From Alphaproteobacteria bacterium (GTDB taxonomy: Bacteria; Pseudomonadota; Alphaproteobacteria; Reyranellales; Reyranellaceae), in the NCBI GenBank assembly GCA_019635875.1, contig JAHBYP010000003.1:1-64000 (forward strand): a stretch of DNA of 64,000 nucleotides, read 5' to 3'. Below the pieces are notes generated by a model, which saw nothing but the letters and a program-made list of their open reading frames with translations, was not told the DNA's origin and did no database searches. A program made the position numbers and the translations under genes. Below are positions 1,171-20,030 of the stretch, in pieces (the stretch's first letter is position 1; each line of letters opens with the position of its first letter).

Positions 1171-1218
1171 CGCGGCTCCTCTTTCCTGTCATCCTCGGGG
1201 CCGTCCGCGGCCCCTGTA

Positions 1219-1261
1219 GCGCCGCGAGGGATCCAGGCCGGTCCTGGATCCCTCGCGGCGC
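1219..1261. terminator. Bidirectional hairpin between convergent genes (family B repeat)
   Basis: A perfect inverted repeat with 19-base arms (GCGCCGCGAGGGATCCAGG and its complement) and a 5-base loop lies between the convergent PAP2 and KTSC genes. It is a member of the dispersed GAGCGCAGCGAGGGATC hairpin family found elsewhere in the window. There is no clear U-tract, so its role as a terminator or an mRNA-end stabiliser is inferred from position. Confidence 0.5.
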
Positions 1262-1290
1262 TCGGGATGACAGGCACGGACGGACGGCGC

Positions 1291-1521
1291 CTACGACGCC
1301 GGCAGGCGGCGGCGTTCGAGGGTGCTGGTGTTGCGGATGAAGGCGAAGCGGTTGCGGATTTGGGCGTTGAAGTATTCGCCCTTCGACGGCGCGGCATTGA
1401 GCTCGAGGTGCGTGGCCGTCGGCACGCGCAGATAGGTGTAGCTCGCGCCCGACGGGAAGACGATCGTCAGTTCCCGTCTCTTCGGGTTGTAGCGGTAGGA
1501 GCGGATGACCGTCGACGGCAT
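1291..1521 (-). CDS. KTSC-domain small protein
   Basis: This 76-residue protein matches the KTSC domain, a short fold often linked to nucleic-acid-related proteins but with no proven activity. It shows the family pattern: an early SYRYN stretch, L-T-I-V-F-x-S-G, a Y-x-Y-x-R-V-P segment, then APSKGEYFN and an I-R-N-R-F-A-F end. The frame stays open further upstream, but that part only translates the hairpin repeat, so the ATG at 1521 just before the conserved region is the better start. It is monocistronic and converges on the PAP2 gene. Confidence 0.75.
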   Translation of the reverse strand: MPSTVIRSYRYNPKRRELTIVFPSGASYTYLRVPTATHLELNAAPSKGEYFNAQIRNRFAFIRNTSTLERRRLPAS

Positions 1522-1570
1522 GACCGTGCAACGCGCACGACGCGCCAACGATGCATGCTCGATCCGACTA

Positions 1571-1690
1571 CCTTCCCCCGGAGGGGGAAGGTGGCGCGCA
1601 GCGCCGGATGGGGGATGCCTCAACAAAACCGGTGTCCGTCTTCCACATCCCCCTTCCGCCCTTCGGGCACCTTCCCCCTCCGGGGGAAGG
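1571..1690. repeat. Hairpin repeat, family A copy 2
   Basis: This full copy has both CCTTCCCCC/GGGGGAAGG terminal palindromes and the internal GGGGGATG and ACATCCCCC arms. It sits between the divergent KTSC and GMC oxidoreductase genes, so the promoter region of at least one of them contains or borders the repeat. Confidence 0.85.
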
Positions 1691-1764
1691 GATATGAAGC
1701 ATCAGCAATCCCTGTCGCGGCGCATGGCCTTCAGTGACCTCCCGTGATGCTGCGTTCTGTTCTA

Positions 1765-1785
1765 CCTTCCCCCTCCGGGGGAAGG
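1765..1785. repeat. Solitary half of the family A repeat that carries the next gene's RBS
   Basis: A single terminal palindrome (CCTTCCCCC arm, central TCC, GGGGGAAGG arm) ends five bases before the ATG of the GMC oxidoreductase. Its right arm, GGGGGAAGG, is the only Shine-Dalgarno-like sequence upstream of that start. If the hairpin forms in the mRNA the site would be sequestered, so the repeat may set the translation level of the gene. Confidence 0.7.
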
Positions 1786-1790
1786 GAAAA

Positions 1791-3398
1791 ATGAAGCACG
1801 AGAAGGTCGACGTTCTGATCATCGGCTCGGGGGCCTCGGGCGCGGCGGTGGCGTGGAGCCTGGCCGAGACGAGGATGCGCATCCTCTGTCTCGAGCAGGG
1901 CGACTGGGTGAAGCCGACCGACTATCCCAGCAACGGGCGCGACTGGGAGGCGCGGCTGTTCAGCGACTTCGCCACCAGCCCGAACCGGCGCAACCGCATC
2001 ACCGACTATCCGATCAACGACGCCAACTCGCCGATCAAGGTGGTGAACTTCAACGGCGTCGGCGGCAGCACCGTCATGTGGACGGCGCACTACCCGCGCC
2101 TGCATCCCTCGGACTTCCGCGTGCGCACGCTCGACGGCGTGGCCGACGACTGGCCGGTCGACTACTGGACGCTCGAGCCGTTCTTCGCCGAGAACGACCG
2201 CATCACCGGCGTCGCCGGCCTGGCCGGCGATCCCGGCTATCCGCACCACCAGCCGCCGATGCCGCCGCTGCCGCTGGGCAAGTCGGGCGCGCGCTTCGGC
2301 CGCGCGATGAACCAGCTCGGCTGGCACTGGTGGCCCTCCGACAGCGCCGTCGCCACCACCGCGTACGAGGGCCGCGCGCCCTGCATCAACCTCGGCCACT
2401 GCACGCCGGGCTGCGCCCAAGGCGCCAAGGCCAGCACCGACATCACCTACTGGCCGCATGCCCTGCGCGCCGGCGTCGAGCTGCGCACCCGCGCCCGCGT
2501 ACGGGAGATCACGCTCGATGAAAACGGCATGGCCTCGGGCGTGATCTACTACGACGCCGAGGGCCGCGAGCACGTGCAGCCGGCCGAGATGGTGGTCGTG
2601 GCCTGCAACGGCGTCGGCACGCCGCGCCTGCTGCTGAACTCGACCTCCGGCCGCTTCCCCCATGGTCTCGCCAATTCCAGCGGTCTGGTGGGCCGCAACC
2701 TGATGTTCCACCCCTATGCCCTGAGCTACGGCTATGTCGACGAACCGCTCGACGGCAATCGAGGGCCCCCACTGTGCATCTGGAGCAAGGAGTTCTACGA
2801 GACCGATCCCAACCGCGATTTCGTGCGCGGCTACACCTTCCAGTTCAACCGCGGCGGCGGCGCGATCATGGAAGCGCTGAGCTCGACCGCCGCCGGCCGC
2901 CTGCCCGTGGGCCGCGCCCATCACCGCGTCTACCGCGAGCTGCTGCACCGGCGCATCGGCCTGTCGGCGATCATCGAGGACCTGCCGGAGGCGCACAACC
3001 GCGTCACGCTCGATCCCGTGCTCAAGGACGCCGACGGCATCCCCGCGCCGCGCATCGACTACACGATCGGCGACAACTCAAGGCGCATGATCGCGCACGC
3101 TCTGGCGAACGCGCGCACCATCCTGGAGGCGGCGGGCGCCAGTGGCATCACGACCGAGGTGCCGATCCTCAACGGCGGCTGGCACCTGCTGGGCACCGCG
3201 CGCATGGGCACCGATCCCGAGCGCTCGGTGGTCAATGCGTGGGGGCGCTGCCACGACGTGCGGAACCTGTTCATCGTCGACGGCAGCATCTGGGTGACGG
3301 CGGGTGGGGTGAACCCGACGTCGACGATCCAGGCGTTGGCGCTGTACATCGCGGACGCGATCAAGAAGAGGCTGAGAGACGGGACGCTATTCGATTGA
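1791..3398 (+). CDS. GMC-family FAD-dependent oxidoreductase
   Basis: This 535-residue protein belongs to the glucose-methanol-choline oxidoreductase family, which oxidises alcohol or sugar hydroxyls using FAD. The N-terminal dinucleotide-binding loop GSGASG is at residues 12-17. The C-terminal domain carries the expected active-site pair H465 (WHLLGT) and N508 (GGVNPTS). A Cys-bearing segment in the middle (LGHCTPGCAQGAK) resembles the gluconate and sorbitol dehydrogenase branch, whose large subunits work with a small subunit and a cytochrome c; neither is encoded next door. No signal peptide is seen. The frame is open back to 1734, but the ATG at 1791 directly precedes the conserved KVDVLIIG strand and has a GGAAGG ribosome-binding site. 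Substrate unknown. Confidence 0.85.
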   Translation: MKHEKVDVLIIGSGASGAAVAWSLAETRMRILCLEQGDWVKPTDYPSNGRDWEARLFSDFATSPNRRNRITDYPINDANSPIKVVNFNGVGGSTVMWTAHYPRLHPSDFRVRTLDGVADDWPVDYWTLEPFFAENDRITGVAGLAGDPGYPHHQPPMPPLPLGKSGARFGRAMNQLGWHWWPSDSAVATTAYEGRAPCINLGHCTPGCAQGAKASTDITYWPHALRAGVELRTRARVREITLDENGMASGVIYYDAEGREHVQPAEMVVVACNGVGTPRLLLNSTSGRFPHGLANSSGLVGRNLMFHPYALSYGYVDEPLDGNRGPPLCIWSKEFYETDPNRDFVRGYTFQFNRGGGAIMEALSSTAAGRLPVGRAHHRVYRELLHRRIGLSAIIEDLPEAHNRVTLDPVLKDADGIPAPRIDYTIGDNSRRMIAHALANARTILEAAGASGITTEVPILNGGWHLLGTARMGTDPERSVVNAWGRCHDVRNLFIVDGSIWVTAGGVNPTSTIQALALYIADAIKKRLRDGTLFD

Positions 3399-3441
3399 TG
3401 TTGCGCCGTCCCATTGACGTCGAACCCAAAATGCCGAACCG

Positions 3442-4323
3442 CTACTGAATCAGACCCGCTGCTTGCAAGGCCGCGATCCGCTCATGCTTATGTTCCTTTG
3501 GAATAAAGTCGACATGCTCATCTAGATCCCTCAGAAAATCTTCGAAAGTCCTATCAATCTGCTCGATTGAAAACCTCTTCGAATACATCTTCTTAACTTC
3601 CGGGTCACTACGTGGGAAAATAGCGTACCAGGGTATACCTGCACTCTGTTTACGCAGTTGATATAATTCGGCACCAATATCCATATCACCAAAAGAATAC
3701 CCTACGATTATCACGCACGTTCTACGAAAGTCATTCATAGCGCTGCGCAACATCTCTCTGTAGTCCGATATCATCTCAAGATAATCAAACTGGGTAATTA
3801 CCAAACCTCCCTTGCCGATCGGTTGCCCCACATGACTAAGGCTGCCGTGAGGCTTATAAAGAATGCGTCTACCAGGAATCGGATGCCGATCGTAGCAAAT
3901 CATGTCAAGCAAACCCGGATGGTTCTTATATCCAATCTCTACAAGCTCATCGTAGTTCGTTGTAAAAATCGAAACAGGTCTAAGATAAGGTAGGACGATA
4001 TGCTGCCAAAGTGGTTTCTCGCACGAAAAGGAGCGGACCAAGGTTTCATTGAGAATTTGCCTGCCCGTCTTCGCCTCGATGATTGCAGTAGCGTGCTCAA
4101 GCCCCATCAAGCGGAGGTTCCGCGGATCAAATGGTCCCTGTTGAATGTTGTGTTTGTATGTCTGCCAAAGCTGATTCCTCAACTCATAGGCGCTCATAAG
4201 CGGCTCGCCATGGATATTCTTAGCGCCGATGGACGCCCCTGCGCCAAGAAAGACCACGAGCCGATCTCGAAAGTGAGGCCAATTGGACACAAACGCATCC
4301 ATGTTCTCGTCTGCCGGTAGCAT
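3442..4323 (-). CDS. SIR2-like domain protein, probable anti-phage NADase
   Basis: This 293-residue protein has the SIR2-like NAD-binding fold used by many phage-defence effectors. Motifs are in order: GAGAS at 27-31, TTNYDE at 121-126, KPHGS with candidate catalytic H159 at 157-161, and GYSFGD at 208-213. In characterised relatives such proteins deplete NAD+ after infection and stop growth; this is inferred here from fold and context. The gene is AT-richer than the chromosome on either side and runs divergently from the kinase-helicase gene, with 87 bp between them containing a palindrome. The start at 4323 follows an AGAGGG sequence; the in-frame ATG at 4302 is an alternative. No second effector domain is attached. 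Confidence 0.8.
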   Translation of the reverse strand: MLPADENMDAFVSNWPHFRDRLVVFLGAGASIGAKNIHGEPLMSAYELRNQLWQTYKHNIQQGPFDPRNLRLMGLEHATAIIEAKTGRQILNETLVRSFSCEKPLWQHIVLPYLRPVSIFTTNYDELVEIGYKNHPGLLDMICYDRHPIPGRRILYKPHGSLSHVGQPIGKGGLVITQFDYLEMISDYREMLRSAMNDFRRTCVIIVGYSFGDMDIGAELYQLRKQSAGIPWYAIFPRSDPEVKKMYSKRFSIEQIDRTFEDFLRDLDEHVDFIPKEHKHERIAALQAAGLIQ

Positions 4324-4354
4324 CGCCCTCTTTCGGCCCCTTGCTTCATTACGA

Positions 4355-4371
4355 CCACGATCCTATCGTGG
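4355..4371. promoter_or_regulatory. Palindrome between divergent defence genes, candidate operator
   Basis: CCACGAT-CCT-ATCGTGG is a perfect 7-base inverted repeat with a 3-base spacer. It lies almost centrally in the 87-bp gap between the SIR2 gene and the helicase gene, where both promoters must be. A site shared by both directions fits a dimeric repressor or a small RNA hairpin. No regulator gene is seen in the island. Confidence 0.45.
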
Positions 4372-4410
4372 AAGTAGTGAAGAGAGCAACGGGCGAGATC
4401 GGAACCTTCC

Positions 4411-7400
4411 ATGCAGGAGCTCGGCGGACGCTATCGCCTAACGCGGCGAGTTCTCCCTGGCGATACAGCTCGCGGCATACCAGCGCTTTGGCACGCGCAC
4501 GACGCTGGCGATGCCTACTACGTGAAACTATGGAAGCGCGTAGGTGATGATCGTAACGATATCCGCGCTCTGTGGAACAGGGAGGTGCGGAGTCTCTCCC
4601 GGCTTCAAGGCTATCCAGGTGCAGCCAGTTTGTTTGTTCGGCTGCATGACATCAGGGAAGAGGAAAAGCACTTCTACGCGGTGCTCGACAGTGGCTGGCG
4701 ACGACTGCTCAAAGAGGTGCTGGCTGAGCGAAGCCGAATACCCTGGCTGACTAACTTGTCTGAAGTCGGCAGGCGCCGCCCCCTATGGGAGGGACTCCTC
4801 CGAATCGCGGAAGCGCTTGCGTTACTTCATAGCGAAGGAACCCTCCACCGCACTTTAGGAACTGCCTCAATCTTTGCTGGACCGGACGGTGAGGGTGACT
4901 TCAGACTGAGTGGGTTCGAATGGTCACTGCGTATCGCAGGATCAGATCGCCCCTCCGCAGCTACTGGCCGAGTTCGTAACCTTGTCGCACCGGAGTTAGC
5001 GAAGGCTGAGGGAGAACACTCGACGGCAACAGATTGGTTCGACTTCGGACTTGTTGCGGCTGAGCTATTTGGCGTTCCCGTATCGGCCTTGCGAAACCGC
5101 GAAGCGGTCCGATCAGCCACTACCCGCCTACATACCCTTAGGAACAATGAGCGCTACACCATTCTGAGGCTTCTAGAAGAAAGCCACGAACTACGGCTCG
5201 CCAGTTCAGACGAAGTCCTTCAGGAAATTCGGAATCTCATTCGCGATCTCTCGGCCGCGCCAGGCGGTCATATCCACAGCGTAGTGCTGGCAGTGTCACT
5301 TGGCTCAGATGTATCCTTGTCACGAGACGTTGAACTGGCATCGGAACGGACGGCCCCTGTCGATAAGCCCCTTTTACAACTCCAGTGGATAGAAAGAGAT
5401 TTGCGCGGCGATCGCCGAGTCATTGCCCGAACCCACCCCCGACCCCACTACACAATCCGCGGAGATAAACTCGAGTATCACGTGCGGCCTTGGCGGACCA
5501 GTAGCGGTGAGAATTGGGCGATCGGTTACTGTCAGCGGGTCGAAACTGTTCCCCGAACCACTGCTGAGGACCAATACTACAGCCTAGGTCAACGAAGGCT
5601 GGAGATCGTCTCCAGATCTACGGCGCAACGAACTTTCTATACCCTTCGAGATAGGGCGGCGCCTTGGGATCGTACATTTAACTTTGTCCGAACGCGTAGA
5701 CACTTGGATCCACATCTCCGAAATGTTCATGATTTCTTTAGGATCACGCAACAGATTGATACACTTTTAACTGCGGCGCAAATTTGTCCCGTCCGTGTGA
5801 CGACAACGAAGCCCTCTGCTTATGAGACAATTGTTACCGTAACCCCGATCGAAGATCCTGCTCGCAACCAGTTGGCACAACAGCTGCGATTACCGCCTCC
5901 TTCTGAGCAACTCAAGGATTGGTTTGATCTTGGGGCGGAGGCAGTGTCTGCCGATGACGAGGATGACCCCACTCATGATGTCTATCATCTACTCGTTAGG
6001 CGCACGGTGGACAGCGAGGGAGGTGCAGTCAAATGGCGTTTCCGGCGAGCCATATCTGACCCGAGTGGTCCGCTATACATGTTCAGTTGTCCCTATAACG
6101 TAACCATCGGCGACCGCGTCCTTTACTTGGCGCGAAACCATGGAGGAACTATCGCGCAGTTGAAGCGCCGCCATAAAGCAATCGACGATATGCGTTCACA
6201 TGAAAGTCTACTGCGCTGGCTGGCTGACCCAAAAGGGACGAGCCGTACAAACAGCGATATCCTACCAGCGCCTCGAACTGAAATTCCCCTGGACGAATCA
6301 AAGATCGCAGCCCTGAGTCGCCTCTGGAGAACTCAGCCGCTATTCGCTGTGCAAGGTCCACCAGGCACCGGAAAAACTACTTTGATCAGAGCGTTTGCTG
6401 ACCGGCTCTTCAAGAGCGATCCCACTGCACAGATCTTGATTTCCGCTCATTCGCATCATACCGTTGATGATGTTGCCACAAAGCTCAGCAAGCTCTTTTC
6501 CAGTTTGCTCCCCAGCGATCGCCCCCTGCTACTTCGATTGAGTGCTGACGAAGGTGAAGAGCACGCCCTGTCCACTATCACGTCAGAGATCATTCAGCGA
6601 CTAAAGCAAAGCGAGCTTGCAAAGAGAGTACCCTGCTCTTTGCAATCGAGGCTTGCTAACATAGGTTCAAAAGACAAGCACACCGAACAAGCTGACGTTG
6701 ATCTGAGAACTATGCAGCTTCTCATTCAAGATTCTGCAAACGTAACCTTAGCGACGCTCAATGCGCCGGACCTGGCTGAGCTTGCTGAACGTGGGCGTCG
6801 CTTCGATTGGTCAATTATTGAGGAAGCTGGCAAAGCGCACGGCTTTGACATGGCTATTGCCTTGGAAGAGAGCCATCGACTTCTACTCATTGGGGATCAC
6901 TACCAACTGCCACCATTTAACTCGAAAATATTCAAGGATCTTTTGGCGGAACCATTGAGGGTTCGTAGTGCGATTCAAACTGGAACCCAGTTTGCGTCCA
7001 GTTTGATCGATGTCTCAATTGTCGATGATGAGGAAGGTCGAGAGTCCTTCGAGGATAGATGCGATAGTTGGCGTCGAATGGTCGATGTGTTCGGCACATT
7101 ATTCGAGAGCAGCGGGGGCAACGATCCGGGATCTGACGGACCAGCGCAACCTCTGACCGATCAGCATCGAATGCATCCAGACATCGCGGAGCTAGTGGGT
7201 TCCGTGTTCTATCGTGACAAGGCCTCAGGAACCACGATTCTGAAGTCACCTCCCGAAACACATGAGCATTTCAAGAAAGTGCCTCCATATGTGATTTCCG
7301 AAGAATCCTGGCTGCCGAGGCAGAGAATTGTGTGGTGCGATGTTCCGTGGAAACAGAAGACGGAAATGGCCGAAGGCGAGATGGATGGCCTATTCGCATC

Positions 7401-7902
7401 TCCTGCGGAAGCGGCAGCGGTTATTAAAGTCCTAGGGGAGTTTCAACCGAACGGGGACGCGCTTTGCGAAGTCCAAGTTCTCTCGCCATATAACGATCAG
7501 CTCGATTTGATCGATCACTTGCTTTCTGAGGCGCGGCGGGAAGGGCGTTTAGCGACGATGTACAAGCCCCCATTCGATCTCGCCTTTGGGAAACGATCGG
7601 GAGCGACTGTGGATGAGTTTCAAGGAAGTGAAGCAGATATTGTTGTTGTTAGTCTTGTACGGAATAATCCACTTGTCGCACGAAAGAGCTTGGGGTTTCT
7701 CAGGGAGCCCAATCGGATGAACGTTCTTCTTAGTAGAGCGCGCCACAAGCTGATCATCGTGGGGAGTTGGGACTTTTTCGCATCGAGGTGCGACGACCAT
7801 ACACCTTTGGACGAGGAGTACGCCTACATCGGCCGCATGATGGAGTTCGCGAAGTCTGCACAGGAGAAGGGGACGTTGTGTCGTAAGTGGGCACCCAAAT
7901 GA
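4411..7902 (+). CDS. mkoA: MkoA-like kinase-domain/SF1 helicase fusion (type I Mokosh)
   Basis: This 1163-residue protein joins an N-terminal protein-kinase-like domain (about 1-270), a long central region, and a C-terminal superfamily 1 helicase of the DNA2/NAM7/Upf1 type (about 630-1150). Helicase motifs are complete: GPPGTGKT near 648, IIEEAGK as the Walker B region near 802, GDHYQLPPF near 828, QHRMHPDI near 917, DEFQGSEADIVVVS near 1068 and NVLLSRAR near 1103. The kinase part keeps a candidate lysine (YYVKLW) but has HRT for HRD and SGF for DFG, so it may be a pseudokinase. With the PLD gene overlapping its stop codon it forms the two-gene architecture known as Mokosh type I. Codon use is AT-richer than the flanks, indicating acquisition by transfer. 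Confidence 0.78.
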   Translation: MQELGGRYRLTRRVLPGDTARGIPALWHAHDAGDAYYVKLWKRVGDDRNDIRALWNREVRSLSRLQGYPGAASLFVRLHDIREEEKHFYAVLDSGWRRLLKEVLAERSRIPWLTNLSEVGRRRPLWEGLLRIAEALALLHSEGTLHRTLGTASIFAGPDGEGDFRLSGFEWSLRIAGSDRPSAATGRVRNLVAPELAKAEGEHSTATDWFDFGLVAAELFGVPVSALRNREAVRSATTRLHTLRNNERYTILRLLEESHELRLASSDEVLQEIRNLIRDLSAAPGGHIHSVVLAVSLGSDVSLSRDVELASERTAPVDKPLLQLQWIERDLRGDRRVIARTHPRPHYTIRGDKLEYHVRPWRTSSGENWAIGYCQRVETVPRTTAEDQYYSLGQRRLEIVSRSTAQRTFYTLRDRAAPWDRTFNFVRTRRHLDPHLRNVHDFFRITQQIDTLLTAAQICPVRVTTTKPSAYETIVTVTPIEDPARNQLAQQLRLPPPSEQLKDWFDLGAEAVSADDEDDPTHDVYHLLVRRTVDSEGGAVKWRFRRAISDPSGPLYMFSCPYNVTIGDRVLYLARNHGGTIAQLKRRHKAIDDMRSHESLLRWLADPKGTSRTNSDILPAPRTEIPLDESKIAALSRLWRTQPLFAVQGPPGTGKTTLIRAFADRLFKSDPTAQILISAHSHHTVDDVATKLSKLFSSLLPSDRPLLLRLSADEGEEHALSTITSEIIQRLKQSELAKRVPCSLQSRLANIGSKDKHTEQADVDLRTMQLLIQDSANVTLATLNAPDLAELAERGRRFDWSIIEEAGKAHGFDMAIALEESHRLLLIGDHYQLPPFNSKIFKDLLAEPLRVRSAIQTGTQFASSLIDVSIVDDEEGRESFEDRCDSWRRMVDVFGTLFESSGGNDPGSDGPAQPLTDQHRMHPDIAELVGSVFYRDKASGTTILKSPPETHEHFKKVPPYVISEESWLPRQRIVWCDVPWKQKTEMAEGEMDGLFASPAEAAAVIKVLGEFQPNGDALCEVQVLSPYNDQLDLIDHLLSEARREGRLATMYKPPFDLAFGKRSGATVDEFQGSEADIVVVSLVRNNPLVARKSLGFLREPNRMNVLLSRARHKLIIVGSWDFFASRCDDHTPLDEEYAYIGRMMEFAKSAQEKGTLCRKWAPK

Positions 7903-9644
7903 AGGTACTCTACGTCCCCGTCTTCCGAGCGCCGGTCAGCTATGTGGTCACGCTTGGCCGGAGGTGGAGCTTGCTGGAGCACATGTTGCTCGTAAGCTTG
8001 GCAGATGGCCGCAAGTCGGTTGCAGAGTTGGCGAAGTCTGCCAATGCCCCAAGTCGGGTGGTTGTTGAGGCACTAACAAACCTACTTCGGGCCGGTTGGA
8101 TTGAAGTGCGATCTGGTCCCGAAGGCGCTCTCTTCGTCGCCACTGCCGTTGGAAAGCAACGAGCACTAGAGCAGGAACTTCAGCCGGAGCTCCGCCGCGA
8201 GATTAAGTGGACTTCTCTATGTATGGAGCGACTCACAGGTTCTTGGATGCGAACTGATGACATTGAGCTTGTATATAAACATGACCTTCCTGAGGACGCT
8301 GCAGCCATCACTCCGGTACTAAGCTCGATTAACTATGATGATCCCAGTGTTCGCGGCTTGATTAACTTGCGTTCGGATGAGGGTTTTGAAGGCTTCCAAC
8401 CTACAGGCTGGCTGCCGTCGAGGCCGTTTATGCGAGTGATTATAGACGTCGGTGAAGTTCAATCGGGCCTCCCAATATATACCCCACCGAAGCTCGATCA
8501 TGCTCTGCTCGCGGCGTCGGAGGCTTTTCCTGACCTGCCAACCAACCTTGAGATAGGCGCCGCTCCGGCAAACAGCGTATCGTTTGACATGAGGGACACC
8601 ATACAGCCAGACGATCTAGTCGTCGGCGGCCGGCAGCATCTCGAGATCTTGAAAGTGTCGCTTGCAAGCGCTCGATCACTAGTATTCATTCATTCGTGCT
8701 TTTTGGACCCTGCGGTAGTCGAAAGCCTACTGCCGGATCTGGAGCGGGCGGGCCGGCGAGGCGTGCGAGTAGATTTGCTTTGGGGCCTATTCACAGATCC
8801 TGAGTCTTCGGATAAGCCAAGACCTATTACGCAAACTGAGCAGGTCCTTGACAAACTGCCACCTACTGTTCGTCGGAAGGTGCAGCTATCGCCAATCTCG
8901 TCTGGGTCCCATTGTAAAGTTATTGTGTTCGATAGTGGTCCCGGAATATGGACCAGCATTGTCGGCAGCTGTAACTTTTTGTCTTCTTGGTTCGAGGCGA
9001 TAGAAATCTCTGTTCGATCACGAAGCACAAGGCTTGCCGCGCAGTTGCTAGGATACCTGATCCACGGGCAATTGCCTGCATCTGGTACATGGCCACCAGT
9101 TGTACGACGACTCAATACCGCCTGGAACGTGGCACGCGTTGGTGCGGCATCAGCGCCTGAGGCGGGAGCACATAGACTTTCGCTGCTAGCAGACGAAGAT
9201 CACTACGCATGTGTCACTAGTGCAAGAGACCTAGCAAAGCGAGACATCATCCTTGGGTGTGACTTATATGGGCTTGCCGCTGAAACTTCCGTCTTGGTAC
9301 CCTTGCAGCGCGCTGCAGAGATGGGTGCGAGGGCTACTATTTTCTTTCGTCGTCCAAGTAAACGTTTGAAAGAAGATGATCGGAGCCCCGAAGCAGCTAC
9401 TTTAGCCGCACGCGGTATCAAACTCATCAATGTGGATGACCTTCACGGCAAGTTCCTCGTATGGGATGACAGTTCAGTTGTGGTAACCAGTTTCAATTGG
9501 ACTGCAGCTGTCGTAGATGGAACGAGGAGCCGAGGGGCCGAGCTCGGATTGCTTGTCGAGGGTGCAGGACTGCGCGAACTCCTAGCGGATAAATTGGAGC
9601 AAGCGTCTAAGGGAACACTCCGACTGAGAGACGCGACCGGGTAG
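7899..9644 (+). CDS. mkoB: MkoB-like phospholipase-D-family nuclease (type I Mokosh)
   Basis: This 581-residue protein carries two phospholipase D signatures: HCKVIVFD followed by GSCN (from about residue 338) and HGKFLVWDD followed by SFN (from about 515). PLD proteins of this kind usually act as nucleases through a paired HxK active site. Residues 1-90 look like a winged helix-turn-helix (VAELAKSANAP, then a wing ending in GALFVAT), which may bind DNA or sense partners. The ATG overlaps the helicase stop as ATGA, pointing to coupled translation and a stoichiometric complex; a GTG at 7887 is an alternative start. In known type I Mokosh pairs the nuclease works with the RNA/DNA helicase; the trigger is unknown. 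Base composition matches the helicase gene. Confidence 0.78.
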   Translation: MKVLYVPVFRAPVSYVVTLGRRWSLLEHMLLVSLADGRKSVAELAKSANAPSRVVVEALTNLLRAGWIEVRSGPEGALFVATAVGKQRALEQELQPELRREIKWTSLCMERLTGSWMRTDDIELVYKHDLPEDAAAITPVLSSINYDDPSVRGLINLRSDEGFEGFQPTGWLPSRPFMRVIIDVGEVQSGLPIYTPPKLDHALLAASEAFPDLPTNLEIGAAPANSVSFDMRDTIQPDDLVVGGRQHLEILKVSLASARSLVFIHSCFLDPAVVESLLPDLERAGRRGVRVDLLWGLFTDPESSDKPRPITQTEQVLDKLPPTVRRKVQLSPISSGSHCKVIVFDSGPGIWTSIVGSCNFLSSWFEAIEISVRSRSTRLAAQLLGYLIHGQLPASGTWPPVVRRLNTAWNVARVGAASAPEAGAHRLSLLADEDHYACVTSARDLAKRDIILGCDLYGLAAETSVLVPLQRAAEMGARATIFFRRPSKRLKEDDRSPEAATLAARGIKLINVDDLHGKFLVWDDSSVVVTSFNWTAAVVDGTRSRGAELGLLVEGAGLRELLADKLEQASKGTLRLRDATG

Positions 9645-9652
9645 CTCCGCGG

Positions 9653-9774
9653 CTACGCCCCTTCTCATCCTGCCCCACCCGCGCCACCATGAACTCGTCA
9701 ATGTCCCCGTCGATCACTTTCTGCGGGTCGATGCATTCGATGGTGGTGCCCAGGTCCTTCACGATCAACTTCAT
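9653..9774 (-). pseudogene. Decayed 3'-terminal fragment of prfB
   Basis: Read on the minus strand, this 122-bp stretch gives IVKDLGTTIECIDPQKV and then IDGDIDEFM and GQDEKG, clearly the C-terminus of release factor 2. The intact prfB ends with the equivalent VKDLRTNVERTDPQKV, LDGDLDEFM and GQDEKAA. The fragment has lost one base just before the ancestral stop (GAAGGGGCGTAG against GAAGGCGGCGTAG), which puts the TAG out of frame. Homology ends abruptly near 9765 on the 5' side and at the ancestral stop on the 3' side, nine bases from the mkoB stop. It lies 2.3 kb from the real prfB on the same strand. It is probably a scar of recombination or integration that brought in the defence island. 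Confidence 0.8.
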
Positions 9775-9847
9775 CGCTCAGGATACGCCATCTGTACCAA
9801 ACCAGATCATCTGCATGACGACTGCAATGCAAAGCCAACCAACGTGA

Positions 9848-9901
9848 GGGGGTGTCAGTGCCCCCGTCAACTGCTGGCGGACCCGCCAGCACCTTGACAC
9901 C
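9848..9901. terminator. Nested inverted repeats, probable terminator or operator
   Basis: Three overlapping symmetric elements lie here: GGGGG-TGTCAGTG-CCCCC (9848-9865), a strong hairpin from 9866 to 9898 with GTCAA and TGCTGGCGG arms, and an outer GGTGTCA/TGACACC pair. They separate the defence island and prfB scar from ppk2. The hairpin could end transcription leaving the island. The TGTCA/TGACA symmetry could equally be a protein-binding site for ppk2. No U-tract follows. Confidence 0.4.
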
Positions 9902-9981
9902 GCTCGGTCTAATCTGCCCATGCTTCATCAACCGGATCGCCGGCCGGGCCGGACGACCGCGGCGAAGGCGGGGGGCGGACC

Positions 9982-10860
9982 ATGACCAAGAACGAGCCCT
10001 ATGAAGTCGTGCTGGACGAGGCCAAGGCCCAGGAGGCCGTCCAGGAGGTCTGGGCGAAGGTGGCGCGCAGCTCGAAGCTGCGCAAGCCGCCCAAGGACTG
10101 GAAGTACGTCGACGAGCTGGCCTATCTGCAGTTCGAGCTGATCAAGCTGCAGGAATGGGTGCGGCTGAACGGGCTGAAGGTGCTGATCATCTTCGAGGGG
10201 CGCGACGCGGCCGGCAAGGGCGGCGCGATCAAGCGCATCAGCGAGCCGCTCAATCCGCGCATCTGCCGCGTCGTGGCGCTGGGCACGCCGACCGAGCGCG
10301 AGCGCGGCCAGTGGTATTTCCAGCGCTACGTCGCGCAGCTGCCGGCCAGGGGCGAGATGGTCCTGCTCGACCGCAGCTGGTACAACCGCGCCGGCGTCGA
10401 GCGCGTCATGGGCTTCTGCAGCGACGAGGAATACAAGGAGTTCCTGCGCGCCACGCCGAAATTCGAGAAGATGCTGGTGCGCTCGGGCATCCAGCTCCTG
10501 AAGTTCTGGTTCTCGGTCAACGACGAGGAGCAGGAGAAGCGCTTCATGGAGCGGGTCAAGAACCCGTTCAAGCGCTGGAAGCTCAGCCCGATGGACCTCG
10601 AGTCGCGCAAGCGCTGGGTCGACTACTCGCGCGCCAAGGACATCATGTTCGAGCACACCGACCGCGACGAGACGCCGTGGTACGTGGTCAACGCCGACAA
10701 CAAGAAGAAGGCGCGGCTCAACTGCATCCGCCACATCCTCGACACCCTGCCCTACAAGGACATGCGCCCGGTCGAGATCGAGGTCCCGCCGCGCCAGGAG
10801 GACGACGGCTACAAGCGGCCCAAGATGTCGACCCAGCGGTTCGTCGAGGAGGTGTATTGA
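9982..10860 (+). CDS. ppk2: Polyphosphate kinase 2 family protein
   Basis: This 292-residue enzyme of the PPK2 family transfers phosphate between inorganic polyphosphate and nucleotides, usually phosphorylating NDP or NMP at the expense of polyphosphate. The P-loop-like Walker A GRDAAGKGG is at 73-81 and the lid/Walker B region MVLLDRSWYNR begins at 126. The aspartate after the Walker A arginine and the RSWYNRAG segment are typical of one-domain PPK2 enzymes. The length is normal for the class I form. The ATG follows a G-rich leader (GGGGGGCGGACC). It is followed immediately by a family A repeat and has no operon partner, so it is probably transcribed alone. Confidence 0.92.
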   Translation: MTKNEPYEVVLDEAKAQEAVQEVWAKVARSSKLRKPPKDWKYVDELAYLQFELIKLQEWVRLNGLKVLIIFEGRDAAGKGGAIKRISEPLNPRICRVVALGTPTERERGQWYFQRYVAQLPARGEMVLLDRSWYNRAGVERVMGFCSDEEYKEFLRATPKFEKMLVRSGIQLLKFWFSVNDEEQEKRFMERVKNPFKRWKLSPMDLESRKRWVDYSRAKDIMFEHTDRDETPWYVVNADNKKKARLNCIRHILDTLPYKDMRPVEIEVPPRQEDDGYKRPKMSTQRFVEEVY

Positions 10861-10909
10861 ATCCCTTCCCCCGGAGGGGCAGGGCCATCGCATATGGCTT
10901 TCGGGTTTC

Positions 10910-11031
10910 CCTTCCCCCGGAGGGGGAAGGTGGCGCGAAGCGCCGGATGGGGGATGTCGTAGACGGACTCCGCCGTTCGTCTTCGACATCCCCCTTCCGC
11001 CCTTCGGGCACCTTCCCCCTCCGGGGGAAGG
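10910..11031. repeat. Hairpin repeat, family A copy 3, with a preceding half copy
   Basis: This is a full compound hairpin between the convergent ppk2 and DUF454 genes. A half copy lies just upstream (10864-10878). Between the two is AGGGCCATCGCATATGG (10881-10897), nearly identical to the terminal inverted repeat of the MITE-like element at 11749. No matching right-hand terminal repeat is found here, so this copy looks like a truncated relative of that element. Confidence 0.8.
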
Positions 11032-11041
11032 CAACGCGATC

Positions 11042-11395
11042 TCACGCCGAGGGCCGCGTCCAGATCCAGCCGAGCACGGCGGCGGCGATGGCGGCCGGCA
11101 GCCAGCGCCACGGCTCGGCGAGCGTCAGCCAGCCGACCGCGACGCTGATCGCCATCAGCAGCGTGGCCGCGCGCTTGGCGGCGAGCGGGATGGCGCGGCG
11201 TTCGCGCCAGGCGAGGATGGCCGGGCCGGTGCGGGGATGGGCCAGCAGCCTCGCCTCCCACTCCGGGTGCGAGCGGGCGAAGAAGAAGGCGGCGAGCAGC
11301 AGGAAGGGCGTCGTCGGCAGCAGCGGCAGGAAGATGCCGGCGATGCCCAGCAGCACGGCGACGATTCCGAGCGCGCGGTAGACGGGCTTTCTCAT
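11042..11395 (-). CDS. YbaN-family (DUF454) inner membrane protein
   Basis: This 117-residue small membrane protein of the DUF454/YbaN family has an unknown function. It shows the family hallmarks: an MRKPVYRALG start, two hydrophobic stretches around LPLLPTTPFLLLAAFFFARS, the HPRTGPAILAWRERRAIP motif, and a third hydrophobic region near the C-terminus. The frame is open further upstream, but the ATG at 11395 matches the usual family N-terminus. It is monocistronic and diverges from the small lipoprotein gene. A half copy of the GGGACCGCCGG palindrome lies in its leader. Confidence 0.85.
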   Translation of the reverse strand: MRKPVYRALGIVAVLLGIAGIFLPLLPTTPFLLLAAFFFARSHPEWEARLLAHPRTGPAILAWRERRAIPLAAKRAATLLMAISVAVGWLTLAEPWRWLPAAIAAAVLGWIWTRPSA

Positions 11396-11526
11396 CGAAG
11401 TGGTTTTCCTGGGACCGCCGGCGCCCCTATTTTTGTCACGGCCCGCCACTTGGCCGCCCTACTGGTCGCAACCCGCGCCAATCCTTCATCGTTCTCCCCG
11501 CACGACCAGGTAAAGGGAGACAACAG

Positions 11527-11724
11527 ATGAAGCATGTGATGTCGCTTGCCGCCGTCGCCCTGCTGGCCTCGGCGTGCGCCGTGAAGCACGAACGGACCGT
11601 CGTCACGCAACCGGCGGAGGCCAGGTCGGCGACGGTGGTGACCCCGACGGGGTCGACGACCACCACGACCGTGCATCAGGAGCCGGTCTCCTCGAGATCG
11701 ACCATCAGGGTTGTGCCGCAGTAG
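11527..11724 (+). CDS. Small Thr/Val-rich lipoprotein
   Basis: This 65-residue predicted lipoprotein has a hydrophobic signal (residues 4-16) ending in a lipobox, LASAC, with C17 as the lipidated residue. The short mature part is rich in Thr, Val and Ser with a TTTTT run and no recognisable domain. A good ribosome-binding site (AAAGGGAGA) sits nine bases before the ATG. Small lipoproteins like this are common in alphaproteobacterial envelopes and usually have no assigned function. It is monocistronic, followed by a MITE-like insertion. Confidence 0.75.
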   Translation: MKHVMSLAAVALLASACAVKHERTVVTQPAEARSATVVTPTGSTTTTTVHQEPVSSRSTIRVVPQ

Positions 11725-11736
11725 GAACGCGGGCGC

Positions 11737-11949
11737 GCCGCTCAACGCAGGGCTATCGCATATGGATTGCGGATCTACCTTCCCCCGGAGGGGGAAGGTG
11801 GCGCGCGCAGCGCGACGGATGGGGGATGTCTCAACAATATCGGTACTCGTCTTCGACATCCCCCATCCGCCCTGCGGGCACCTTCCCCCTCCGGGGGAAG
11901 GTAGTAACCAGTCAATTCATCCATATGCGATAGCCCTGCCGCTCAACGC
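11737..11949. mobile_element. MITE-like element with perfect terminal inverted repeats and flanking direct repeats
   Basis: The element proper spans 11749-11937 (189 bp). Its ends are the perfect 19-base inverted repeat AGGGCTATCGCATATGGAT (11749-11767) and its complement (11919-11937). It encloses a full family A hairpin (11778-11901). Immediately outside both ends is the same 12-mer, GCCGCTCAACGC (11737-11748 and 11938-11949), as expected of a target-site duplication. There is no coding capacity, so movement would need a transposase supplied elsewhere. It sits between the small lipoprotein gene and the 3' end of prfB. Confidence 0.7.
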
Positions 11950-11976
11950 GAGCGGCGCGCCGGTGCGCGTTGGCTG

Positions 11977-13093
11977 CTACGCCGCCTTCTCGTCCTGGCC
12001 CAGCCGCGCGGCCAGTGACGCCGCCATGAACTCGTCGAGGTCGCCGTCGAGCACCTTCTGCGGGTCGGTGCGTTCGACGTTGGTGCGCAGGTCCTTCACC
12101 AGCTGGTAGGGCTGCAGCACGTAGCTGCGAATCTGGTGGCCCCAGCCGATGTCGGTCTTGGCCGCCTCCTGCGCCAGCTTCTCGGCCTCGCGCTTCTGCA
12201 GCTCGACCTCGTAGAGCCGGGCCTTGAGCATCTGCATCGCCTTGGCGCGGTTCTGGTGCTGACTGCGCTCCTGCTGGCAGGCCACGGCGATGCCGGTGGG
12301 CAGATGGGTCAGCCGCACCGCCGAGTCGGTCTTGTTGACGTGCTGTCCCCCCGCTCCCGACGCGCGGTAGGTGTCGACGCGCAGATCCTTGTCGAGGATC
12401 TCGATCTCGATCGTGTCGTCGACTTCCGGGTAGACCCAGACCGAGGCGAAGCTGGTGTGGCGGCGCGCCTGGCCGTCGAAGGGCGAGATGCGCACCAGGC
12501 GGTGCACGCCGCTCTCGGTCTTCAGCCAGCCATAGGCGTTGGGCCCGTCGATCTTCATGGCGCAGGACTTGATGCCGGCCTCCTCGCCCGGGCTCTCCTC
12601 GAGATAGGTGACCTTGTAGCCGTGCTGCTGCGCCCAGCGCATGTACATGCGCGCCAGCATCTCGCCCCAGTCCTGCGCCTCGGTGCCGCCGGCGCCGGCG
12701 TTGACCTCGAGGTAGCAGTTGTTGGCGTCGGCCTCGCCCGAGAGCAGCGATTCCAGCCGCATCTTGCCGGCCTCTTCCTGCAGCGCCTTGAGGTTGGCCT
12801 CGGCCTCGTCGATCAGCGCCTGGTCGCCCTCCGCCTGGGCGAGCTCGATCATCTCGACGTTCGACGCGGTGTCGTTCTCGATACGCCGCACGTTGGCCAC
12901 CGCCTTGTCGAGCCGGTCGCGCTCGCGCATCAGGCTCTGCGCGCGCTTGGCGTCGTTCCAGAAATCGGGGGCTTCGGCGGCGGCGTTCAGCTCCGCCAGG
13001 CGGTCGACGGCGACGTCGAAGTCAAAGATGCCTCCTCAGCAGCCCGACCGACTGCTGAATCTCGGCGACAACCGCCTCGATCTCCGCGCGCAT
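11977..13093 (-). CDS. prfB: Peptide chain release factor 2 (with programmed +1 frameshift)
   Basis: Release factor 2 ends translation at UGA and UAA codons. The gene is read in two frames: 23 codons from the ATG at 13093 to CTT at 13025, then, after a +1 shift at an in-frame TGA, 348 codons from 13023 to the stop at 11977, giving a 371-residue protein. Recognition and catalytic motifs are present: SPF in RISPFDG (stop-codon specificity) and GGQ in GAGGQHVNK (peptidyl-tRNA hydrolysis). A CDS taken only from the longest frame (ATG at 12930) would lose the N-terminal domain. It lies downstream of the PBP1A gene on the same strand, 31 bp away, probably co-transcribed. A decayed copy of its 3' end is at 9653-9774. 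Confidence 0.95.
13021..13036 (-). other. prfB programmed +1 frameshift site
   Basis: On the coding strand the sequence reads AGGAGG-CAT-CTT-TGA-C. An internal Shine-Dalgarno-like AGGAGG lies three bases before the slippery CTT, followed by the in-frame TGA and a C. This is the autoregulatory arrangement known from Escherichia coli prfB: low RF2 lets the ribosome slip by one base on CTT-T and continue, while high RF2 terminates at TGA. Spacing and the stop context match. Confidence 0.92.
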
Positions 13094-13123
13094 GACATCC
13101 CCTTGCTCTCTGGGAGCGCTCGT

Positions 13124-15706
13124 CTAATAGGTCTCGCCGGTGCCCGTCAAGGAGGGCGCGCCGGGGTTGGGCGGGCGCGGGGCGATGCCGCCCGACGTGG
13201 TCGGCGCGTACGGCCGCAGGGCGCCGTCGGCGCCCATCACCGGCGGGTCCTGGCCCGAGGGCGGCGCGACGGCGATCACGTCGCGCTCGGCGGCGTCCGG
13301 CGTCGGCACCGGCGAGCCAGGCAGGCGGAAGGGAGAGACGCCGTCGAGCACCTGCCAGTCGTCCTCGGTGGGCTCGGTGCCGGGCTTGAAGCCCTCCCAG
13401 ATCGACCCCGGCTCGCCCGAGTGCATGCGTTGGCCGGTATGGGGATTGACGCGCAGCATGCGCAGGCCGGGCGGCACGCGGAACGGGGTGGGCGACTTGT
13501 CCTTCAGCAGCGTGCGGGCGACCTGCTCGAAGATCGGCACGGCGGTGCCGCCGCCGGTCTCGCCGGGGCCCAAGGTGCGCGGATCGTCGAAGCCGACATA
13601 GACGCCGATCACCACGTCGGGCGTCATGCCGATGAACCACACGTCCTTGGCGTCGTTGGTGGTGCCGGTCTTGCCGGCGATCGGCCGCCGCAGCGCCGCG
13701 AGCCGCGCCGCCGTGCCGCGCGTCGTGACGCCCTGCATCATGTTGACGACCTGGTAGGTCAGCGCCGGATCCATGAACGGCTGGCGGCGATCGACGATCG
13801 AGGGCATCTGCCCGTCGACCGGCACGCCGTCGGCGGCGCAGCCGTCGCAGCTGCGCGGATCGTGGCGGAAGACGGTGCGGCCGTTGCGGTCCTGCACGCG
13901 GTCGACCAGGCTGGGCGTGATGCGCTTGGTGCCGTTGCCCATCATGGCGTAGCCCATGGTCATGCGCAGGAGCGTGGTCTCGCCGGCGCCCAGCGACAGC
14001 GGCAGAAAGAGGCGCATGTTCTCGTCGACGCCGAAGTCGCGGGCGATCCTGGCCACCCTGTCCATGCCGATGAACTTGGCCATGCGCACGGTCATCAGGT
14101 TGCGCGATTTCTCCAGGCCCTGGCGCACCGTGGTCGGCCCGAGGAAATCGCCGCCGTAATTCGTCGGCCGCCACACCGGCTGGTTGCGGCCGGGCTGGAT
14201 CTCGATCGGCCCGTCGAGCACCAGGGTCGAGGGCGTCAGCCCCGCCTCCATGGCGGCGAGATAGACGAAGGGCTTGAACGAGGAGCCGGGCTGGCGCATC
14301 GCCTGGGTGGCGCGGTTGTACTGGCTGCGCTGGTAGCTCCAGCCGCCCGACATGGCGAGGATGCGACCGGTCTTGATATCCATCACCAGGAGCGCGCCGT
14401 CGACATTGGGGATCTGGCGCAGGCCGTAGACCTGCGGCTTGCCGGCGGCGGGCGGCGCCTGCGGCTCGACGGCGATGATGTCGCCGGGCTGCACGATGTC
14501 GGTCCAGCGCTGCGACAGCGCGCCCACCCGCTGGTTGGGCAAGGTCTTGCCGCGCGGGCTGTCCTTGTCGCGCTGCAGGACGCCTTCGCCGTCGAGCGTG
14601 CCGACCTGGACGACGTTCTTGTCGATGTCGAGCACCACGGCGGGCCGCCAGCTGGGCGGGCCGGTGAAGGGCCGCTCGCGCAAATGCCGCTTCAGCCGAT
14701 CCTGCCAGCCATCGACGCTGGTCAGCTTCTCGGTGGCGCCGCGCCAGCCGTGCTTCCTGTCGTAGGCGATCAGGCCGTCGCGCAGCGCCTCGTCGGCGAG
14801 CTTCTGGACGGCGAAGTCGAGCGTCGTGCGCACCGTCATGCCGCCTTCGTAGAGGCCCTTGTCGCCGTAGGCGGTCAGCAGGTTGCGGCGCACCTCCTCG
14901 GCGAAGAACTCGGCGGTGGCCAGCTCCGGCGGATCGACGCGGCGGCGCAGCGCCAGCTTCTCGGCGCGCGCGGCGGCCATCTCCGCCTCGCTGATGTATC
15001 CGTCCTCGAGCATGCGGTTCAGCACGTAGTCGCGCCTGTTGTGCGCGCCCTCGGGATTGCGCTTGATGTGGTAGCGGTTGGGCGCCTTGGGCAGGGCGGC
15101 GAGATAGGCCATCTCGCTGAGGCTGAGCTCATCGAGCGACTTGTCGAAATAGTTCAGCGCCGCGGCGGCGACGCCGTAATTGCCGCCGCCGAGATAGATC
15201 TCGTTGAGATAGAGCTCGAGGATGCGCTGCTTGCTGAAGGCGTTCTCGATGCGCAGCGCCAGGATGGCCTCGCGGATCTTGCGCTGGATGGTGGCCTCGC
15301 CGCCGACCAGGAAGTTCTTGGCGACCTGCTGGGTGATGCTCGAGGCGCCCTCGGGCCGCCTGCCCTGCCCCATGTTGCGCAGGTTGGTCATCAGGGCGCG
15401 GCCGATGCCGATGGGATCGACGCCGGGGTGGCGGAAGAAGCGCTGGTCCTCGGCGGCGACGAAGGCCTGCACCAGGCGCTTGGGCATGGCGGCGACCGGC
15501 ACGAAGACCCGCTTCTCGCGCGCGTACTCGGCCAGGAGCTTGCCGTCGGCAGTATAGAGCCGGGTGGTCGTCGGCGGCTGGTAGTCGGTCAGCTGCTTGT
15601 GGTCGGGCAGGCCAGGCGCGAAATGCCAGTACACGCCCACGGCGCCGCCCACGACGCAGACGATGGCCGCGAAGCCGGCATACATCATCCAACGGATCAG
15701 CCACAC
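13124..15706 (-). CDS. mrcA: Penicillin-binding protein 1A (bifunctional murein synthase)
   Basis: This 860-residue class A PBP polymerises lipid II and cross-links peptidoglycan in the periplasm. An N-terminal membrane anchor spans residues 8-28. The glycosyltransferase domain has the catalytic E86 in AAEDQRFFRHPG and the GASSITQQ motif. The transpeptidase domain has the serine box S475-S-F-K478 and the KTGTT box at K679. A PBP1A-type inserted OB-like region lies between them. The length is usual for alphaproteobacterial PBP1A. It is followed by prfB and preceded on the same strand by the amidase gene; the 167-bp leader contains a GCGGACGGCGCGCCCGTCCGC-like hairpin. Cell-wall synthesis and hydrolysis genes are therefore adjacent. 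Confidence 0.95.
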   Translation of the reverse strand: MWLIRWMMYAGFAAIVCVVGGAVGVYWHFAPGLPDHKQLTDYQPPTTTRLYTADGKLLAEYAREKRVFVPVAAMPKRLVQAFVAAEDQRFFRHPGVDPIGIGRALMTNLRNMGQGRRPEGASSITQQVAKNFLVGGEATIQRKIREAILALRIENAFSKQRILELYLNEIYLGGGNYGVAAAALNYFDKSLDELSLSEMAYLAALPKAPNRYHIKRNPEGAHNRRDYVLNRMLEDGYISEAEMAAARAEKLALRRRVDPPELATAEFFAEEVRRNLLTAYGDKGLYEGGMTVRTTLDFAVQKLADEALRDGLIAYDRKHGWRGATEKLTSVDGWQDRLKRHLRERPFTGPPSWRPAVVLDIDKNVVQVGTLDGEGVLQRDKDSPRGKTLPNQRVGALSQRWTDIVQPGDIIAVEPQAPPAAGKPQVYGLRQIPNVDGALLVMDIKTGRILAMSGGWSYQRSQYNRATQAMRQPGSSFKPFVYLAAMEAGLTPSTLVLDGPIEIQPGRNQPVWRPTNYGGDFLGPTTVRQGLEKSRNLMTVRMAKFIGMDRVARIARDFGVDENMRLFLPLSLGAGETTLLRMTMGYAMMGNGTKRITPSLVDRVQDRNGRTVFRHDPRSCDGCAADGVPVDGQMPSIVDRRQPFMDPALTYQVVNMMQGVTTRGTAARLAALRRPIAGKTGTTNDAKDVWFIGMTPDVVIGVYVGFDDPRTLGPGETGGGTAVPIFEQVARTLLKDKSPTPFRVPPGLRMLRVNPHTGQRMHSGEPGSIWEGFKPGTEPTEDDWQVLDGVSPFRLPGSPVPTPDAAERDVIAVAPPSGQDPPVMGADGALRPYAPTTSGGIAPRPPNPGAPSLTGTGETY

Positions 15707-15873
15707 GATGGGAAGGCCTCGAACCTCTGAAGCACGCGGACGGCGCGCCCGTCCGCCTCACGCTGCGACGTCTCACCTACGCGTTAGATGACGCGCAGGC
15801 AATCGGACGGTTGCGCCCGCCCGTTGATAAGGCACTGGGACTAAGCCTTTTTCGCGGCGGGTCCGGGGCCCGG

Positions 15874-16734
15874 TTAGGCCATTGGCCGCGACGGCGCCGG
15901 CCGGCTGGCGAAATAGCGGTCGGCCGCCGCGGCAATGGCGCGCGCCAGCTTGCGCTGATGCGCCTTGTTGAGCAGCAGCCGCTCGTCGGCGCGGTTCGAC
16001 AGATAGCCCAGCTCGAGCAGGATCGCCGGCACGTCGGGCGCCGTCAGCACCGCGAAGCCGGCGTGCCGATGGCCGCGCGGCAATGTTGCGACGCCATGCC
16101 GCCTCAGCGAGTCGACCATGATGCCGGCGAAGGACCGCGACTGGTTGATAGTGCCGCGCTGGGCCATCTCGATCAGCACGCCGGCGACGGCGTCGGGCTG
16201 CCGGCGCAGGTCGACGCCGGCCAGCAGGTCGGCCTTGTTCTCCTTGGCCGCCAGCGCCGCGGCCTCGCGGTCGCTGGCGCTCTCCGACAGCGTATAGACC
16301 GTGGCGCCGCGCACCCGGCGGTCGGGATGGGCGTCGGCGTGCAGCGAGATGAACAGGTCGGCCTTGGCGGCGCGCGCCCGGCTGACCCGCTCGCGCAGGG
16401 CGACGAAGTGATCCGTGCGGCGGGTCAGGACGACGCGGTAGCGGCGGCCGGCGGTCAGCTGGCGGGCCAGTTCGAGGGCGACGGCGAGTACTACCCGCTT
16501 CTCGTGCATGCCCGAGGCGCCGGTTGTGCCGGGGTCGGCGCCGCCATGGCCGGGATCCAGCGCGATAATGCGCGGCTTCGGGCGGCTGACCCTCGGTCTC
16601 GCGGGGGGCTTGGGCGGCCTGACCTTGGACTTGGCCTTGCGTGGGTTCTTGGCCCAGGCGGGCGTCGACAGGCCGATCATGCCGGCCAGCAGCACTGCCA
16701 ACGCCGCGCGACGACGGATGGGAGTCGGGTCCAT
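15874..16734 (-). CDS. N-acetylmuramoyl-L-alanine amidase (Amidase_3)
   Basis: This 286-residue secreted zinc amidase cleaves the amide bond between MurNAc and the stem peptide, usually during cell separation. A signal peptide covers residues 1-28. A basic/Pro-rich linker (30-54) precedes the catalytic domain. Zinc ligands are visible as H63 (DPGHGG), E78 and H132 (SLHADA), and the catalytic glutamate as E241 (LLELGYLSN). It lacks the N-terminal AMIN domain found in many AmiC-type enzymes, so the targeting mechanism is unclear. The ATG at 16734 follows an AT-rich divergent region shared with rne. It lies upstream of the PBP1A gene on the same strand. Confidence 0.9.
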   Translation of the reverse strand: MDPTPIRRRAALAVLLAGMIGLSTPAWAKNPRKAKSKVRPPKPPARPRVSRPKPRIIALDPGHGGADPGTTGASGMHEKRVVLAVALELARQLTAGRRYRVVLTRRTDHFVALRERVSRARAAKADLFISLHADAHPDRRVRGATVYTLSESASDREAAALAAKENKADLLAGVDLRRQPDAVAGVLIEMAQRGTINQSRSFAGIMVDSLRRHGVATLPRGHRHAGFAVLTAPDVPAILLELGYLSNRADERLLLNKAHQRKLARAIAAAADRYFASRPAPSRPMA

Positions 16735-17202
16735 GGCTTGCTTGTAGAAAAATTACCTTTCTAAATCAATATGATATTTGTATCTCCTAATGTTACAACT
16801 CACAAGAGACGGTACCGCCTAGAGTTTGTGTTGTGGAAATGCCACGCACGGGCGTATGTTGATTCTGCGAACAGTCGTCGTCAGTCGGACGATCCTCAGG
16901 GATTGGTCGACGGCATCGGCGGTCCGGTGCCGGAACGTCCGGCCGCTCTCACGCGGCGGGCGGCGATCGATGCGATCGCGCGGTACCCCGTTTGGACCAT
17001 CGGTGTCATGGTGATGACGGCTTCAACGAAACCCGGGGCCGGCGCAGCTTTTGTCGTCTCGGGGCATCGTGAAGGTCCCTGTCCTGGCGTCTGACGCCGT
17101 TCGACAGGTCGACGACATGGTGCCTGCCGGTCCCGCTCTAGGCGACGGACGTCCGCCTGACCGTTCGCACAGGTGGCCCACGTTCCGTCGCGGAGCATGG
17201 CG
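16735..17202. other. Amidase-rne intergenic region and long rne leader
   Basis: This 468-bp divergent region holds no supported gene. Its left 90 bp are strikingly AT-rich for this genome (AAAAATTACCTTTCTAAATC and onward) and probably hold the divergent promoters. The remaining roughly 370 bp form a GC-rich leader of rne with several short inverted repeats. In other bacteria RNase E controls its own mRNA through a long structured leader, so this leader is a good candidate for similar feedback. Confidence 0.55.
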
Positions 17203-19992: not shown

Positions 19993-20030
19993 AGCGGTAG
20001 CGACGGTGACCCGGTAGCGACGAATCTCTC

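Follow-up and report, generated by a model that had tools for sequence, protein, structure and literature searches.

A decayed prfB 3′ end beside a Mokosh defence island and an insertion hotspot downstream of prfB in Reyranellaceae

In Reyranellaceae, the region immediately downstream of prfB is a hotspot for insertions, as indicated by decayed partial copies of the prfB 3′ end that are confined to genomes in which the usual downstream neighbours of prfB have been displaced, and that are far more frequent than comparable copies of other gene ends. One of these relics lies in the 64,000-nt stretch of contig JAHBYP010000003.1 analysed here (hereafter the window), between a Mokosh type I defence island and a block containing ppk2 (Table 1). 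With moderate confidence, we consider that this scar was most likely left by insertion of the ppk2-DUF454-lipoprotein block next to prfB when the Mokosh/SIR2 island was already present; a link between the scar and the Mokosh island is the less likely reading.

Table 1. Features of the window discussed in the text
Feature	Position	Strand	Basis
GMC oxidoreductase, bordering the island on its left	1734..3398	+	Pfam; family locus comparison
SIR2-like domain protein	3442..4323	-	Pfam SIR2_2, E 1.1e-17
mkoA (Mokosh type I; kinase-like and helicase)	4411..7902	+	PADLOC MkoA, E 8.5e-244
mkoB (Mokosh type I, PLD domain)	7887..9644	+	PADLOC MkoB, E 1.6e-85; PLDc_2
Decayed 3′ relic of prfB (former RF2 C-terminus, from aa 277 through the stop)	9653..9774	-	Protein, DNA and nhmmer searches; alignment
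Block between both prfB ends, likely inserted DNA to which the scar belongs	9775..11976		PPK2, DUF454 and lipoprotein missing beside prfB in other compared family loci
ppk2 (polyphosphate kinase 2)	9982..10860	+	Pfam PF03976, E 1e-103
DUF454 membrane protein	11042..11449	-	Pfam PF04304, E 1.1e-34
Small lipoprotein-like ORF	11528..11725	+	Sequence reading
Intact prfB, programmed +1 frameshift site (CTTTGA)	11977..13093	-	Pfam PCRF and RF-1; start and frameshift read from sequence

The prfB relic and its surroundings

The first-pass annotation had described a decayed prfB 3′ end beside the mkoB stop, with a one-base deletion before its old stop codon, an intact prfB further along the same strand, and ppk2, a DUF454 gene and a lipoprotein gene between the two copies. 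This description holds. When the prfB protein was searched against its own whole genome, the relic was matched at 9658-9765 on the minus strand (aa 277-316, 69% identity, E 3.1e-7); a DNA search matched it at 78% (E 1.5e-23), and nhmmer (E<1) recovered it as the single such copy within positions 1-20000. Its homology to prfB extends from near codon 277, with the old 5′ side at 9774, through to the old stop at 9655-9653, which stands tail to tail with the mkoB stop (9642-9644) at a distance of 8 nt. The 1-nt deletion lies just before the stop, and a 12-nt deletion was additionally found. The intact prfB ends 2.2 kb beyond the relic; ppk2 and the DUF454 gene were identified by Pfam and the lipoprotein-like ORF by sequence reading only. 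The intact gene carries the classical RF2 +1 frameshift site at 13020-13040 (AGGAGG, CTTTGA; CTT-TGA).

Substitutions in the relic fall on codon positions 1/2/3 as 6/3/5 and are biased towards loss of GC (GC>AT 9 vs AT>GC 1). This distribution differs from the 13/7/50 differences between the source genome's own prfB and that of genome G070 (Fisher p 0.015). Thus, unlike the own-G070 comparison, the relic has the appearance of a sequence in neutral decay.

To the left of the relic, mkoA and mkoB are adjacent, as in Mokosh type I, and their products, of predicted phage-defence function, match the PADLOC models over nearly full length. The segment from 3442 to 9644 (SIR2-like, MkoA and MkoB) has a GC content of about 0.45-0.6, near 0.53, vs about 0.68. 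The GMC gene cluster is also found downstream of prfB in genomes G014 and G008, and on a G043 contig that starts inside prfB. To the right of the relic, two copies of a dispersed repeat accompany ppk2, the DUF454 gene and the lipoprotein-like ORF. This partly palindromic repeat of ~120 nt occurs in the window at 129-252, 1568-1690, 10880-11037 and 11747-11944, and has dozens of copies in the same genome and in relatives.

Origin and age of the relic

The relic is nearest to the prfB genes of its own genome and G070, from which it differs at 14-15 of 103 positions. These two were its best matches among 62 family genes, and the best of 49 out-of-family genes matched far less well. Hence, arrival of the relic with the island from a distant donor was rejected, and the earlier suggestion that the divergence of the fragment might show it to have come with the island is not supported for such a source. 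MkoB has relatives in four other family genomes, at 27-30% identity, either on contigs other than that of prfB or at a great distance from it. Since the relic matches its own clade while the nearest family relative of MkoB is 30% identical and lies at another site, the relic and the island have different histories: the relic is of own-clade type and the Mokosh genes are foreign. The divergence of the relic is similar to the third-position divergence between the own and G070 prfB genes (50 of 318), suggesting that the relic is old.

The intact prfB end clusters with those of sister genomes, differing from that of G070 at 4/103 positions. The two prfB ends bracket the ppk2 block and the intact gene has no sign of a replaced tail. 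A mosaic intact prfB in the source genome was considered and rejected, none being seen.

Relics of prfB across Reyranellaceae

A search of prfB in 75 family genomes recovered 3′ relics in at least seven: the source genome (G000), G003, G007, G015, G018, G039 and G049. It should be noted that 7/75 is a lower bound because the nucleotide searches for relics covered retrieved loci only. The relics are diverse in position and extent, with boundaries that vary by genome from about aa 162 to 294. For example, the G003 relic lies 285 nt downstream of prfB, has other flanks and has no clear mutation in common with that of the window; the G049 relic (577 nt downstream) carries an internal deletion; the G015 relic is 1.53 kb downstream; and that of G039, 4.47 kb downstream, is merely 42 nt long and lies beside an IS3 orfA. 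The relics of G007 and G018 are on different contigs from prfB, linked to the usual prfB neighbours in the former and without such a link in the latter. IS3-type transposase genes near relics are located at 4258-4581 of the downstream part of locus L054 (G039) and at 19006-20000 of locus L110 (G007). Third-position differences make up 59/110 over all six measured relics; a value of 31/47 came from G007, G015 and G018 only, which were picked after the data were seen.

Upstream of prfB, mrcA, an amidase gene and rne keep their order wherever contigs reach, and the downstream side is variable. Of the 59 loci whose downstream sequence extends to 2.5 kb or more, 21 have displaced usual neighbours, defined as having no gene of a cluster with at least four members starting within 2 kb. 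All seven relic genomes fall within these 21 displaced loci and none within the other 38 (p 3.4e-4); the association persists without G007 and G018, whose relics are on other contigs (p 0.003). Under one rule applied to the last 240 nt of each gene, intergenic partial copies were found for prfB 3′ ends at 4/61 loci vs 1/620 for the 3′ ends of other genes (p 2.7e-4), and the possibility that relics are an artefact of any gene end was therefore rejected. The confinement of relics to genomes with displaced prfB neighbours, together with this enrichment, identifies the hotspot downstream of prfB, which in several cases includes defence genes. The first-pass annotation had remarked on prfB rather than a tRNA as the anchor and had proposed looking for prfB fragments beside islands in other genomes; prfB is indeed the anchor that recurs in this family.

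Genes were called with a simple home-made caller. The relic counts leave out the start of contig C82 in G007 (about 68% DNA and 39% aa identity), the L085 hit and the L102 5′ hit (each inside an ORF), six 5′ hits of other genes, the L251 tandem duplication, and L113 (a 36% relative). Among 49 loci from Alphaproteobacteria outside the family, with flanks of up to 10 kb, the sole strong case was a simple tandem duplication (L251, JANXTL010000303.1), in which a near-perfect unit of ~219 nt behind prfB includes the last 69 nt of the gene. The genus of the source genome is represented by four genomes, two of which (G001 and G002) have no intact prfB match. G001, rated 100% complete, yields only a weaker RF1-like match, and its GMC contig ends shortly behind the GMC gene.

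In the sister genomes G006 and G008 the site behind prfB is tight, only 2 nt separating the stop codons of prfB and of the convergent gene that follows it in G008; in G007, island DNA occupies this site. G006 and G008 thus offer a candidate empty site for the G007 island, and none was found for the source genome of the window. At the 12 sites where the prfB genes of G008 and G007 differ, the G007 relic agrees with G008 at nine and with its own prfB at two. The layering in G007 resembles that of the window, with the relic within the island (8.4 kb in, away from the native edge) and the island directly abutting the native gene. Contamination of G007 contig C173 from a G006-like strain was rejected, as the contig is 83-93% identical to G006 and G008. 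In G015 and G018 it is the relic, not the intact end, that appears foreign, the own gene ranking 21 and 47, respectively, among family matches.

Evolutionary scenarios for the scar

The two prfB copies enclose the ppk2 block, and insertion of that block is therefore the event that the scar most likely reflects. Incoming DNA would have joined within the prfB 3′ end or immediately past it, bringing or keeping a whole prfB end so that the essential gene stayed intact, and the second, useless end would have remained further downstream and decayed. When DNA enters at the 3′ end of a gene, the displaced end comes to lie on the distal side of the insert, which makes the Mokosh island the older flank: the Mokosh/SIR2 island would earlier have faced the old prfB end tail to tail, and the ppk2 insertion would be the later event. 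One possible mechanism is a site-specific recombinase that has since disappeared; another combines homologous recombination at one border with illegitimate joining at the opposite one. Several observations count against this explanation. The intact prfB end falls with those of its sister genomes and shows no foreign tail, so the donor must be close kin; the G007 relic lies within its island rather than at the native edge; the foreign-looking relics of G015 and G018 fit the opposite polarity; and no recombinase was found in the window or family loci.

Alternatively, in a version of the first-pass idea with a near donor, the relic came with the Mokosh island from a close relative in which Mokosh directly followed prfB, as a prfB tail plus island that joined to the left of ppk2. 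We regard this as rather unlikely. The mere 8 nt to mkoB would be explained, defence-type genes lie directly behind prfB in G048 and G007, and the relics of G015 and G018 look more foreign than the intact ends, so that polarity may differ between genomes. Such an origin nevertheless needs ppk2-DUF454 to be the native neighbour of prfB, an arrangement missing from all the other family loci examined (20 loci, then a wider set). Moreover, the relic is equally close to the own and G070 genes, and it looks old whereas the GC content of the island remains well below that of its surroundings.

Local duplication of the prfB 3′ end with no incoming DNA, split later by unrelated rearrangements, is improbable. 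The own-clade type of the relic would be expected and a simple duplication of this kind exists in L251, but the relics accompany displaced neighbours, and no duplicated flank was seen beside the window relic, unlike in L251.

Gene ends are the usual attachment sites of integrating elements. Nevertheless, the reading of the two prfB ends as classical attL and attR of an integrase element spanning the Mokosh island, for which dusA and trmE offer precedents (PMC4482086 and PMC8409611, in the portions available), is very improbable and already contradicted: no tyrosine recombinase or integrase was detected in the window (E 1e-6) or in 66 oriented family loci, no prfB sequence at the far (GMC) end of the island (nhmmer E<1, positions 1-20000), and no direct repeat on both sides of the island within the 20 largest repeat families (of 33). 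The relic behaves as an insertion scar, as first proposed, but integration of the Mokosh island as its cause is not supported. The window also has no tRNA genes. The integrase search, whose queries included some antisense ORFs, detected the added control loci. Likewise, integrases were absent among the 25 commonest Pfam families of 144 of the 168 downstream accessory proteins, a scan outside which stand 24 proteins (loci L043, L044, L045 and L105, two of L100, MkoA and MkoB). In a search of phages and plasmids with the prfB tail, most of the best matches listed appear to be complete prfB genes, from records that are bacterial or resemble chromosomes.

Defence genes and comparison with known hotspots

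The defence-type genes near prfB appear to vary, with Mokosh and SIR2 in the window. In G007 they comprise a kinase and UvrD, and in G048 a C5 cytosine methyltransferase is accompanied by HD-CE, ORC-CDC6-like and CARF6 proteins. C5 methyltransferase-type genes begin 92 nt (L058, G048) and 51 nt (L068, G005) past the prfB stop. In G003 (contig C112, locus L175), positions 2015-4959 encode a TIR-domain protein and a short pAgo, which immediately follow the GMC orthologue and precede a dGTPase-like gene. The GMC gene and ~35 nt behind it are common to the window and G003, after which the TIR and short pAgo genes follow in the latter. These genes may belong to the same prfB hotspot.

The closest parallel found is with the core defense hotspots of Pseudomonas aeruginosa. 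In the available part of PMC10250203, cDHS1 and cDHS2 hold varied defence genes of lower GC between fixed chromosomal neighbours, as the prfB locus may do, often with no mobile gene and with IS3 as the commonest transposase. The prfB hotspot is also not tied to one mobile element, IS3 orfA being seen only in G007 and G039. Unlike cDHS1 and cDHS2 as described there, one flank is prfB itself and partial prfB copies remain as scars; in addition, only a few genomes yielded recognisable defence genes, and the comparison spans 75 species rather than strains of one species. Islands in trmE and dusA, as presented in the accessible parts of PMC8409611 and PMC4482086, share the use of a housekeeping gene end as entry point; the prfB locus differs in having no integrase, no defined att core and boundaries that vary by genome. 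Among the open-licence papers listed for prfB or release factor 2, none was found that describes prfB as a site of integration, and the available text of PMC2265553 mentions prfB for frameshifting only.

Implications

The scar and the hotspot are genuine; the anchor gene, prfB, looks new, and the kind of phenomenon is a known one. We would like to emphasize that a gene fragment at the edge of an island need not be the scar of that island. The prfB locus is a place to look for defence genes in Reyranellaceae genomes, and partial gene ends are by themselves enough to recognise a hotspot that lacks an integrase. We tentatively propose, as a possibility we would not yet favour, that prfB 3′ ends are an integrase-independent entry point in this family, at which prfB-tailed foreign DNA is repeatedly captured through homology on one side and restoration of the essential gene. 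If true, dated relics would document accessory and defence genes added layer upon layer.
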